Positions 205 to 6,432 of a stretch of DNA of 6,432 bases are shown piece by piece. Made by a program: the position numbers and the translations under genes. Each line of letters opens with the position of its first letter. Position 1 is the first letter of the stretch. This DNA is from a bacterium (GTDB taxonomy: Bacteria > ARS69): contig JALGZO010000529.1 in the NCBI GenBank assembly GCA_025774865.1, forward strand, positions 1 to 6,432. The letters run 5' to 3'. Below the pieces are notes generated by a model. That model searched no databases. It was not told the DNA's origin and saw only the letters and a list, made by a program, of their open reading frames with translations.

Positions 205-247
205 GCCCACTCCCCTCAGCTGGCCGCTTTTTTCGTGGAGAGTTGCC

Positions 248-2854
248 ATGTCGGACGCCGCAGATTCGCCCACCATATCCCTGCGGCCGAACGGCCCGCT
301 CGAAGTCTCCGGTCTCGAGGAGTTCCGCAACTCGCGGGGGGAGCGGATCGCCACCAAGCCGACGATCTTCCTGTGTCGCTGCGGCGCTTCCAGGAAGAAG
401 CCGTTCTGCGACGGCACTCACAAATCGATCGCGTGGACCGACGAGAAGAGCGCCGAGCGGGCTCCCGATCAGCTCGACGAGTATCCGGGCAAGAAGATCA
501 CCATCTACGACAACCGCGGCGTGTGCTCGCACGCCGGCTTCTGTACACGTGATCTTCCGGCGGTTTGGCGTCCCGCTGATCCGTGGATCGACCCCGACGC
601 GGCCGGCCCCGACGACATCGTGCGGGTGATTCGGAGCTGTCCGTCGGGGGCGCTGAGCTACCGGCGCGGCGGCGATCGCGAGACGAGCTACTTCGACGCG
701 CCGGAGATCAGGATTGCGCGAGACGGTCCCTACGAAGTGCGGGGCGGAGTGGAGCTCCGGGACATCGAGCTGGGGGACGGGGCGAGCGCAGATCACCTCG
801 CGCTCTGCCGCTGTGGCCGGTCCCGCAACAAGCCATTCTGCGACGGCAGTCATTGGTACGCCGGATTCCGCGACGACGAGAGCTCGACGATCGCGATGGC
901 GAATCGGGCGGGGGAGGAGACCGAAGAGACGTGGGTCGCGGTCGGAGCGGTCGAGGATCTCGAGAGGGGGAAGGTGCACTCCGTCACGGTCGGCGAGCGG
1001 ACGATCGCGCTGATCGGGACCGCCGACGCGTGGCATGCGCTCGACGGCAGGTGTCCGCATCAGGGCGGTCCGCTGACGGAGGGGGCGATCTGCGAGGGCG
1101 GTGTCGTTCGCTGTCCGTGGCACGGGTACGATTTTTCTCTGAAGACCGGAAAGGGCGTCGGGAACGACGACTCGGTCGAGACGTTCGAAGTTCGCGAGAG
1201 CGACGGTCAGATCGAGATCGCCGCGCCCGCGCCGAGTCGCTCGACCTGGACGGTGAGTCACGTCATGGTCGAGACGATGGTCGAGTGGGGCGTCGACACC
1301 GTGTTCGGGATGGTGGGGCATTCGAATCTCGGCCTCGCCGAGGCGCTCCGCGTGCAGGAGGAGCGCGGCCGGATCCGCTACATCGGAGTGCGCCACGAGG
1401 GCGCAGCCGCGTTCGCGTGCTCCGGCTACGCGAAGGTGAGCGGCCGCCCGGCCGCCTGCCTCTCCATCGCCGGCCCCGGCGCCACGAATCTCCTCACCGG
1501 TCTGTGGGATGCGAAGGTGGATCGCGCTCCCGTCCTGGCTCTGACCGGACAGGTGAACACCCAGGTGTTGGGGCCGGGCGCGTTTCAGGACATCGACCTC
1601 GCGTCCGCGTTCGAGGCGGTCACGCGGTTCAGCCAGACCGTTCTCCCGAACAGCGATTGGGCCCAGCTGGCGTCACTCGCGTTGAAAACCGCCGTCGTCG
1701 AGCGCGACGTGGCGCATCTCATCTTCCCGGACGAGGTTCAGACCCTCGACGCGGGCAACGCCGGGCCGGGACGCCGGGAGGGGCGGATGGGGGAGACCGC
1801 GATCACCCCGCCGGAATCGGCGCTCGGTCTCGCCGGGTATCGGCTCGGTCGGGCGCGACGGCCCGTGATCATCGTCGGACATGGTGCGCGTCAGGGCATC
1901 GCCGAGGTGGAGGCTCTGGCGGAGGCGCTCGGGAGCCCGATCATCACGACGTTCAAGGGAAAGGGTCTCGTCGGCGACGATCACCCACTCGCGGCCGGAG
2001 TCCTCGGACGAAGCGGAACGCCGGTGGCCAGCTGGTTCATGAACCAGGCCGATCTGCTGCTGGTCTTCGGCGCATCCTTCTCGCAGCACACCGGAATCAC
2101 GACTTCCAAGCCGATCATCCAGGTGGACTTCGATCGCATGGCGCTCGGCAAGTTTCATGGCGTGGATGAGGCCGTTTGGGGCGACATCGGCGTCGCCGCC
2201 CGGGAGTTGCTCGTGCGGCTGTCCGAGAATCCGTCGCGCGTCGACCAACGAGGCGAGCTCGTCGAGCGCTGGAAGGCCTGGCGGGACGAGAAGGGGAGTC
2301 GTGCGCGGCAAGATCGCGGCCACGGGATCAACTCGGCTGCCATCTTCTCTCGTCTGTCGGAAGCGGTCCGCGAGGACGCCATTCTGAGCGTCGACGTCGG
2401 CAACAACACCTACTCGTTCGGGCGCTACTTCGAGGTGGGCCGGCAGCCGGTTCTCATGTCGGGCTATCTCGGTTCGATCGGCTTCGCGTTCCCCGCGGCG
2501 ATGGGCGCGTGGGCGGCCGCGCCGGACCGGAAGGTGGTCTCGATCAGCGGCGACGGAGGCTTCGGGCAGTACCTGGCGGAGTTCACGACGGCCGTCAAGT
2601 ACGGCATGAACATCACGCACGTCCTCCTGAACAACGGGGAGCTCGGCAAGATCTCCAAGGAACAGCGCGACGGCGAGTGGAGAGTGTGGCAGACGGACCT
2701 TCGCAACCTGGACTTCGCCGAGTACGCCCGCCTCTGCGGGGGGGAGGGGTTTCGGGTGGAGTCGGCGGGTGATCTCGCGGCCGCATTCCAGGATGCCCTC
2801 CGGGTGGAAGGCCCCTCCCTCGTCGAGATCGTGTCGGACCCGCTCCTCACCTGA
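248..2854 (+). CDS. Fused CDGSH-Fer4_19-CDGSH-Rieske-ThDP oxidoreductase (acetolactate synthase/pyruvate oxidase family)
   Basis: This is an 868-residue soluble protein with no signal peptide or membrane segment. CDGSH motif 1 has C43, C45, C54 and H58. A YjdI-type ferredoxin spans about 82-138, with C93-x-H95, C99 and CPSGAL from C131. CDGSH motif 2 has C187, C189, C198 and H202. A Rieske domain spans about 228-325, with C269-P-H271 and C289-P-W-H292. A short linker leads to a full ThDP enzyme. Its PYR domain (about 332-500) has the cofactor-activating Glu at E384 (RHEGAAAF) and GPGATNL at 409. The central Rossmann-like domain spans about 520-660. The PP domain (about 690-868) has GDG at 768-770 and NN at 795-796. 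In this family ThDP enzymes decarboxylate 2-oxo acids and pass the intermediate to an acceptor; here the clusters could take the electrons (inference). The E. coli PoxB-type C-terminal lipid-binding tail is absent. The ATG at 248 follows GGAGAG (237-242). FAD binding, substrate and acceptor are unresolved; a non-redox carboligase with structural clusters is possible. Confidence 0.9.
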   Translation: MSDAADSPTISLRPNGPLEVSGLEEFRNSRGERIATKPTIFLCRCGASRKKPFCDGTHKSIAWTDEKSAERAPDQLDEYPGKKITIYDNRGVCSHAGFCTRDLPAVWRPADPWIDPDAAGPDDIVRVIRSCPSGALSYRRGGDRETSYFDAPEIRIARDGPYEVRGGVELRDIELGDGASADHLALCRCGRSRNKPFCDGSHWYAGFRDDESSTIAMANRAGEETEETWVAVGAVEDLERGKVHSVTVGERTIALIGTADAWHALDGRCPHQGGPLTEGAICEGGVVRCPWHGYDFSLKTGKGVGNDDSVETFEVRESDGQIEIAAPAPSRSTWTVSHVMVETMVEWGVDTVFGMVGHSNLGLAEALRVQEERGRIRYIGVRHEGAAAFACSGYAKVSGRPAACLSIAGPGATNLLTGLWDAKVDRAPVLALTGQVNTQVLGPGAFQDIDLASAFEAVTRFSQTVLPNSDWAQLASLALKTAVVERDVAHLIFPDEVQTLDAGNAGPGRREGRMGETAITPPESALGLAGYRLGRARRPVIIVGHGARQGIAEVEALAEALGSPIITTFKGKGLVGDDHPLAAGVLGRSGTPVASWFMNQADLLLVFGASFSQHTGITTSKPIIQVDFDRMALGKFHGVDEAVWGDIGVAARELLVRLSENPSRVDQRGELVERWKAWRDEKGSRARQDRGHGINSAAIFSRLSEAVREDAILSVDVGNNTYSFGRYFEVGRQPVLMSGYLGSIGFAFPAAMGAWAAAPDRKVVSISGDGGFGQYLAEFTTAVKYGMNITHVLLNNGELGKISKEQRDGEWRVWQTDLRNLDFAEYARLCGGEGFRVESAGDLAAAFQDALRVEGPSLVEIVSDPLLT

Positions 2855-5249: not shown

Positions 5250-6432
5250 GTGAACGCTCGATCGACGACTCCGTCCCTCGCTCCCGTTCTCGCCGTCAAC
5301 TTCGTCGGGGCGCTGGGCTTCAGCATCGTCCTGCCCTTCCTGGTCTTTCTCGTCACGCGATGGGGCGGCAACGCCCTCGTGTACGGGCTCGTCGGAGCGA
5401 CGTACTCCGCTTTCCAGCTCGTCGGTGCCCCCGTGCTCGGGCGCTGGTCCGACGTCCACGGCCGGCGAAGAATTCTGCTCCTGAGCCAGCTCGGAACCCT
5501 CGCGTCGTGGGTCCTGTTCGTCACGGCCTTCGCGGTGCCGGAACGTCCGATCTGGGAAGTGGACTCGTCCGTCGTCGGACGCTTTGCCGTCACGCTCCCC
5601 CTGGTGCTGGTTTTCGTGGCGCGCGCGTTCGACGGACTCACTGGCGGCAATATCTCCGTCGCCAACGCGTACCTCGCGGACATCACGACCGAAGAGGATC
5701 GCAGCGTCAACTTCGGAAAGATGGGCATCTCGGCGAACCTCGGGTTCATCGTGGGGCCGGCGATCGCCGGCCTGCTCGGAGGCATCGGCGGCGGTGAGCT
5801 CCTTCCCGTGCTGGCGGCCCTCGGGATCTCGATCGTCGCGACGATGATCATCGCGTTCAAGCTCCCGGAATCGAATCCGTGCGTACTGACCTCGGATCCG
5901 GAGCGTGCGGGTGCGCAACGCGTGCTCCGACCGGACCACAAGGCGTGTTTCACCGTGGAGTCGGTGAGGCCGAGTCTCGCGAGCGTACTGCGGACTCCCT
6001 GCATCCCCGTCCTCTTGGCGATTCACTTCTTGGTGATGCTCGGCTTCAACTTTTTTTACATCGCGTTCCCGGTCTACGCCGCGGAGGGGCTGGCCTGGTC
6101 GGTGCGAGACACGGGCCTTTTCTTTTCGGCTCTGAGTTTCTGCTTGGTCATCGTGCAGGGTCCGCTCCTGGGATTCGTGTCGCGATTCTGGCGGGACGGG
6201 ATCCTCATCGTGGTGGGCAGTCTCATCCTCGCCGCCAGCTTTCCGTTCTTCGCCTCGACGCGGAGTCCGGTGATCTACGCCGGTGCCGTACTGCTGGCCC
6301 TCGGCAACGGGCTCATGTGGCCCTCGGTCGTCGCCAGTCTTTCGAAGGCGGCGGGGTCCGAAATCCAGGGCGCCGTGCAGGGACTCGCGAGCAGCGGGGG
6401 AGCGGTCGCGAGCATCCTCGGTCTCGTCGTCG
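5250..6432 (+). CDS. MFS efflux transporter, TetA-like drug:H+ antiporter family, 3' end missing
   Basis: The frame is open for 394 codons from GTG to the window edge. It encodes an integral inner-membrane protein of the major facilitator superfamily. A 14-residue N-terminus leads into TM1 (about 14-35) and TM2 (about 44-63). MFS motif A follows in the TM2-TM3 loop (G64-RWSD68-VHGRRR). TM4 carries R125 and DGLTGG, then NAYLADITTEEDR, a stretch very like the TetA 'AYIAD...R' segment. Antiporter motif C is in TM5 (G159, G165, G169-P170, G174). A polar interdomain loop of about 45 residues (206-250) separates the six-helix halves, with TM7 starting near 252. Compared with about 400-residue TetA proteins, only the last helix or so is missing. 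TetA-like relatives pump drugs or other small molecules against protons. The substrate here cannot be inferred, and no TetR-type regulator is present. The gene diverges from the secreted protein gene. Confidence 0.88.
   Translation, partial: MNARSTTPSLAPVLAVNFVGALGFSIVLPFLVFLVTRWGGNALVYGLVGATYSAFQLVGAPVLGRWSDVHGRRRILLLSQLGTLASWVLFVTAFAVPERPIWEVDSSVVGRFAVTLPLVLVFVARAFDGLTGGNISVANAYLADITTEEDRSVNFGKMGISANLGFIVGPAIAGLLGGIGGGELLPVLAALGISIVATMIIAFKLPESNPCVLTSDPERAGAQRVLRPDHKACFTVESVRPSLASVLRTPCIPVLLAIHFLVMLGFNFFYIAFPVYAAEGLAWSVRDTGLFFSALSFCLVIVQGPLLGFVSRFWRDGILIVVGSLILAASFPFFASTRSPVIYAGAVLLALGNGLMWPSVVASLSKAAGSEIQGAVQGLASSGGAVASILGLVV

Follow-up and report, generated by a model that had tools for sequence, protein, structure and literature searches.

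We conclude that a gene joining two CDGSH domains, a Fer4_19 domain and a Rieske domain to a complete ThDP enzyme is real, and that it is one branch of a Rieske-ThDP family that is apparently so far undescribed. On balance, we lean towards reading its sequence as that of a soluble POX-type ThDP enzyme that oxidises a 2-oxo acid and sends the electrons through its own Rieske and CDGSH-Fer4_19-CDGSH modules to an outside acceptor.

The fusion gene and its recurrence

The window, that is, the whole stretch of DNA analysed, is one entire 6.4-kb contig of a metagenome-assembled genome. The first-pass annotation had described one polypeptide with four Fe-S modules, all cluster ligands and a complete ThDP enzyme, and this description holds: a single 868-residue frame without internal stops carries the domains listed in Table 1, and every Pfam match lies above its gathering cut-off. 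All 12 ligand positions of the CDGSH and Fer4_19 domains are invariant in the fusion-type proteins (20/20), so that all clusters of the fusion would appear to be under selection; the Rieske ligands are kept in 115 of the 116 members of the wider family, the remaining one having a gap. On the basis of its conservation, His95 is assumed to complete the ligand set of the Fer4_19 cluster. An AlphaFold2 model of the fusion protein had a mean pLDDT of 86.1 and a pTM of 0.66.

Table 1. Positions of features in the window (residue numbers refer to the 868-residue protein)
Feature	Position	Strand	Basis and details
Ribosome-binding site GGAG	237..240	+	7 bases 5' of ATG 248; read directly from sequence
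CDGSH-Fer4_19-CDGSH-Rieske-ThDP fusion protein, 868 aa	248..2854	+	Pfam and homologues
CDGSH [2Fe-2S] domain 1; C43 C45 C54 H58	290..424	+	PF09360, residues 15-59, 58.6 bits
Fer4_19 (YjdI-type); C93 H95 C99 C131	482..667	+	PF06902, residues 79-140, 71.5 bits
CDGSH [2Fe-2S] domain 2; C187 C189 C198 H202	722..856	+	PF09360, residues 159-203, 64.2 bits
Rieske [2Fe-2S]; C269 H271 C289 H292	929..1165	+	PF00355, residues 228-306, 62.2 bits
TPP_enzyme_N (PYR); catalytic Glu384, family-specific His358	1250..1600	+	PF02776, residues 335-451
TPP_enzyme_M, flavin-type middle domain	1844..2209	+	PF00205, residues 533-654
TPP_enzyme_C (PP), GDG...NN motif	2393..2830	+	PF02775, residues 716-861
Lys801 codon, invariant; LpPOX Phe479 / PoxB Phe465 position	2648..2650	+	profile alignment
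Secreted protein, 750 aa	2926..5178	-	FlgD_ig / T9SS-type C-terminal sorting domain
MFS transporter	5250..6431	+	runs off contig end

An artefact of assembly or binning, or a pseudo-fusion, would be suggested by the source of the sequence: the window is one short contig, its genome (4.7 Mb in 785 contigs, 92.65% complete) has an estimated contamination of 8.3%, and the gene, single-copy there, was absent from the four other genomes of the same phylum that were examined. Against this, a scan of GTDB species genomes found 18 more that have the identical full domain order (56-72% identity across ~860 residues), and a draw of 385 Alphaproteobacteria added a 19th (L091). All ligands are conserved in these full-length copies, two of which are deposited as chromosomes (L006, CP070631; L011, OY282382). 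Because the full architecture recurs in 19 other genomes, the fusion is neither chance nor an assembly join, and we regard an artefact as barely credible. The 18 hosts are labelled as Alphaproteobacteria, other Pseudomonadota, Acidobacteriota, Latescibacterota, Spirochaetes, KSB1, SAR324 and Gemmatimonadota; none of the E. coli genomes searched had similar DNA. Since the window is a metagenome contig from a genome with this level of contamination, the gene is better established than its host assignment. The two other genes of the window are listed in Table 1; the MFS transporter is weakly Tet-efflux-like, at 130 of 475 bits, far under resistance cut-offs.

The N terminus of the fusion, with two CDGSH motifs, a Fer4_19 domain and full ligands, corresponds to the CDGSH-Fer4_19-CDGSH module of class II CDGSH-Fer4_19 proteins (PMC5859297). 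Combinations of CDGSH with Fer4_19, Glu_synthase, Rieske_2 and ferritin-like domains have been described, but a fusion to a ThDP enzyme was not reported there (Sengupta et al., 2018; PMC5859297). The view that the architecture was undescribed also agrees with our search of the open-access literature, which left most subscription papers outside its scope and returned nothing on the fusion or on a Rieske-ThDP system. The fusion is nevertheless not categorically new, because every part of it belongs to a known family, the enzyme being of the POX type.

The ThDP enzyme and its likely substrate

By profile, the ThDP part is closest to PoxB, then to LpPOX and other pyruvate oxidases, with the C. glutamicum PQO close behind, and the structural model matched truncated PoxB (3eya) with a TM of 0.91, normalised to the target. 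The TPP_enzyme N-M-C fold, the catalytic Glu and the GDG...NN motif of pyruvate oxidases are all present; Glu384 is the catalytic residue and Glu805 aligns with LpPOX Glu483. The NCBIfam pyruvate-oxidase models all scored under their cut-offs (PRK08611, 395/742 bits; PRK09124, 298.5/792; TIGR02720, 281/637.85), and so did the acetolactate-synthase models (TIGR00118, 282/538; PRK08322, 284/509). These last scores of 282-284 bits, together with an AHAS-like GSIGF segment and a dihydroxy-acid dehydratase (IlvD/Edd family) that precedes the gene at one locus (L020), raise the alternative of an ALS-type carboligase or lyase in which the Fe-S modules merely scaffold or target the enzyme. We think this unlikely: the best pyruvate-oxidase profile is clearly higher (395 versus 284 bits), and a scaffold role would not demand invariant cluster ligands.

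Within the pyruvate-oxidase group, the family has active-site features of its own. An invariant lysine, Lys801 (116/116), occupies the position of LpPOX Phe479 and PoxB Phe465 in a profile alignment (PDB chain 2ez4 is titled as the F479W variant of LpPOX), and a GHSN loop containing the invariant His358 stands in place of the P-G-x loop. We take the positions of LpPOX Phe479 and PDC Asp28 to line the substrate pocket, and because Lys801 and His358 lie at such positions, we infer that the substrate carries an added negative charge, as 2-oxoglutarate does. With an invariant Lys for the active-site Phe, the substrate is therefore probably not simply pyruvate, and identity as a plain pyruvate oxidase is doubtful; we rejected that simple label, given the missed curated cut-offs and the absent Phe. 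The middle-domain fold is kept, and the flavin-segment residues T568, G587, S589, G608, S610 and D627 are invariant, which suggests that FAD is retained there.

PoxB reaches the membrane through its C-terminal tail; the title of 3ey9/3eya is cited alongside this link. No PoxB-type tail was found anywhere in the family, whose proteins end at about residue 527 of the 572 of PoxB. The nearest non-Rieske POX relatives, encoded on plasmids (34-36% identity), have neither Lys801 nor His358 nor the loss of the tail. Thus the fusion shares with PoxB/CidC/pyruvate:quinone oxidoreductase and LpPOX the ThDP fold, the residues Glu384 and Glu805 (LpPOX E483) and a flavin-type middle domain, but differs from them in lacking the membrane tail and in possessing N-terminal Fe-S modules, Lys801 and His358. 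With PFOR and other 2-oxoacid:ferredoxin oxidoreductases it would have in common only the idea that ThDP electrons exit via Fe-S clusters. As the first-pass annotation had stated, the domain arrangement is unrelated: Pfam gave no match to a POR or OFOR domain, nor to the pairing of POR with ferredoxin-type 4Fe-4S domains, and on that ground we rejected kinship with PFOR.

The Rieske-ThDP family and its gene neighbourhoods

The first-pass annotation was right that the fusion is real, but the fusion is not isolated, being instead one branch of a widespread family with swapped modules. We defined this family by a Rieske C2H2 domain plus a ThDP enzyme with the GHSN, Ser589, Tyr740 and GKI[ST]KEQ signatures, all of which the window protein has. 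H358, E384, S589, Y740, K801 and E805 are conserved in every one of its 116 members. To judge from the sequences, the electron module is swapped across the family, from Rieske alone (type C, ~656 aa) through 2xCDGSH-Rieske (type B: L021, L022, L027, L039, L092 and L104) to CDGSH-Fer4_19-CDGSH-Rieske (type A, as in the window), and also includes a membrane anchor. Shorter relatives of types B and C (loci L021-L082) are at ~57-65% identity, and plasmids of Halorubrum, Halorarius, Salinirubellus, Haloferax and Mycobacteroides carry others at 53-57%. Even draws of genomes, which included those already known as carriers, found the family, all types together, in 15/385 Alphaproteobacteria, 6/369 Gammaproteobacteria and 16/297 Acidobacteriota. 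Cultured carriers of the Rieske-ThDP form are Roseibium album, Microbulbifer agarilyticus and Haloferax larsenii.

In a tree of the ThDP domains, the domain types cluster (4 changes, versus 22.6 in shuffles). Forcing type A into one clade improved the likelihood by 6.2 (p-AU 0.63), so multiple fusion origins are not needed; a single origin is compatible with these sequences but not proven. Phyla are mixed within type A, and this suggests horizontal transfer of the fusion. A mobilizable Mycobacteroides abscessus plasmid (L087, 3271-9902) carries a Rieske-ThDP gene with cation:proton antiporter, flavodoxin-family, TetR and DUF4331 genes, a layout that to us recalls KefFC electrophile defence.

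Among the 62 non-fusion loci (L021-L082), 29 have a glutamate-synthase FMN-domain (GltS) gene, usually adjacent (a weak generic match at L025 was excluded). The pair repeats at 7 of 15 type C loci in Acidobacteriota, and a glutamate synthase-related gene lies near the Rieske-ThDP gene on a haloarchaeal plasmid. The partner resembles the FMN/3Fe-4S proteins of glutamate synthase (PF01645, 314 bits; three 3Fe-4S cysteines by inspection) but has no amidotransferase domain, carrying instead an N-terminal Rieske, 2xCDGSH, rubredoxin-like or membrane-anchor module. These modules match those of the ThDP enzyme. Apart from the two cases that follow, the ThDP enzyme and the GltS-FMN partner of its genome both have Rieske domains; 2xCDGSH occurs on both neighbours at L021 (52/92 residues identical) and L039 (66/87), that is, at 57-76% identity; and in Planctomycetes the two adjacent genes share an N-terminal membrane anchor, MxPLxNAxLG... 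(L033, 3181-5418 and 5422-6834; L045, 7713-9947 and 9951-11357). At L074 a separate, divergent gene beside the Rieske-ThDP gene encodes a CDGSH-Fer4_19 protein that has two CDGSH domains, an arrangement resembling the window protein in unfused form. Because co-encoded partners carry the matching module, the electron relay is the best-supported reading; the earlier idea of an attached electron wire is to this extent supported. GltS-FMN proteins with exchangeable N-terminal modules (2xCDGSH, Rieske, rubredoxin-like) were seen at L021 (10059-11591), L039 (10112-11683), L046 (6349-7998) and L126 (5072-6460).

Other genes recur at the non-fusion loci. A DUF5996-type gene was found at ~23/62, a CPA1 cation/proton antiporter at ~15/62, and a weakly MsrQ-like Ferric_reduct-Rieske membrane gene at 10/62; the last is a plausible link to quinone. 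DUF5996-type genes stand beside the ThDP gene at L016, L028, L041, L046, L073 and others, and we found no mention of DUF5996 in the open-access literature searched. At L071 (6133-7961) the Ferric_reduct-Rieske protein is followed by an unnamed protein without a Pfam match, in which a DSKCFLGVMKPG...HxACAxxC-like motif is conserved, and at L043 (982-2817) it is fused to a protein of this kind, also with no Pfam match.

CDGSH domains are known redox and iron sensors. The clusters might accordingly gate the enzyme, sensing oxidative or electrophile stress and switching a non-redox decarboxylase or carboligase, and several loci, where a CPA1 antiporter is accompanied by TrkA_C or by an FMN-reductase/flavodoxin gene, have a layout that resembles redox-gated KefFC. 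Four clusters of three kinds in series are, however, excessive for a sensor, and the matched module on the FMN enzyme partner fits electron transfer better; we give redox or iron gating a low probability.

The fusion loci themselves have a different neighbourhood. None of 18 has a GltS neighbour, against 29/62 (Fisher p 0.00014, for related sequences that perhaps share one origin and with some contigs short), and because of this the built-in cluster array may replace the partner relay in type A. Genome-wide, a GltS orthologue at 66-70% identity is present in only 2/18 fusion genomes, one of which also carries a type C gene, and none was found in the genome of the window; we therefore rejected a GltS partner acting from elsewhere. 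In a Latescibacterota genome the GltS protein is more remote (45%), and its N terminus is rubredoxin-like. An antiporter is near at three fusion loci and TrkA_C or FMN-reductase genes at five; since no neighbour recurs beyond the antiporter, TrkA_C and FMN-reductase-like genes, the fusion type has no shared neighbour set, and sulfotransferase, argininosuccinate synthase, Spondin_N and SOUL neighbours look individual.

Proposed electron route and its significance

In the relay that we favour, ThDP would attack the 2-oxo acid and CO2 would leave. The resulting enamine would then be oxidised in two single-electron steps by the Rieske cluster, probably via FAD, and the electrons would pass from Rieske to CDGSH2, Fer4_19, CDGSH1 and finally the outside acceptor. 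The enzyme's own Fe-S relay would thus take up electrons in place of docking on the membrane. Rieske-only enzymes would perform the same task with partners, namely the Rieske-GltS FMN enzyme and the Rieske-MsrQ-like haem membrane protein, and the fusion would have its relay built in. In favour of this route, the nearest relatives by profile and fold (PoxB, LpPOX and pyruvate:quinone oxidoreductase) are all redox members of the superfamily, the PoxB-type tail is missing family-wide while Fe-S modules have been added, and all cluster ligands are retained in proteins from many phyla. Against it count the general scarcity of the Rieske-GltS partner in fusion genomes and the other roles open to CDGSH clusters, which can serve as redox sensors or in cluster transfer.

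The direction of flow could also be reversed. Rieske ferredoxins usually supply electrons to an enzyme, and an FMN-reductase-like gene is near at L004, L016, L058 and L087, so the clusters might feed the ThDP enzyme from a reductase or GltS-type partner, for example for reductive carboxylation or acyl-ThDP reduction. Typical Rieske and CDGSH potentials are, however, far above what reductive carboxylation needs, and we consider electron input improbable.

Extending the outward relay to the whole family gives a bolder and still tentative proposal: Rieske-ThDP and Rieske-GltS enzymes with exchangeable relays may cooperate in oxidising an amino acid and the corresponding 2-oxo acid without NAD or CoA and feed quinone, in bacteria and haloarchaea, for example from glutamate through 2-oxoglutarate to succinate. 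In the branch represented by the window, the relay would have been absorbed into one four-cluster polypeptide, a ThDP-FeS invention independent of PFOR.

If the relay is real, it would be a second, PFOR-independent link of ThDP chemistry to Fe-S clusters, made with cluster types, Rieske and CDGSH, that are usually the higher-potential ones. The relay would moreover assign a role to some of the bacterial CDGSH proteins, few of which have known electron partners, and would offer a way into an unnoticed set of genes encoding Rieske-ThDP, Rieske-GltS, DUF5996, CPA1 antiporter and Rieske-Ferric_reduct proteins. This set is carried by a few percent of Alphaproteobacteria and Acidobacteriota and also occurs in haloarchaea, and the cultured carriers make the system testable.
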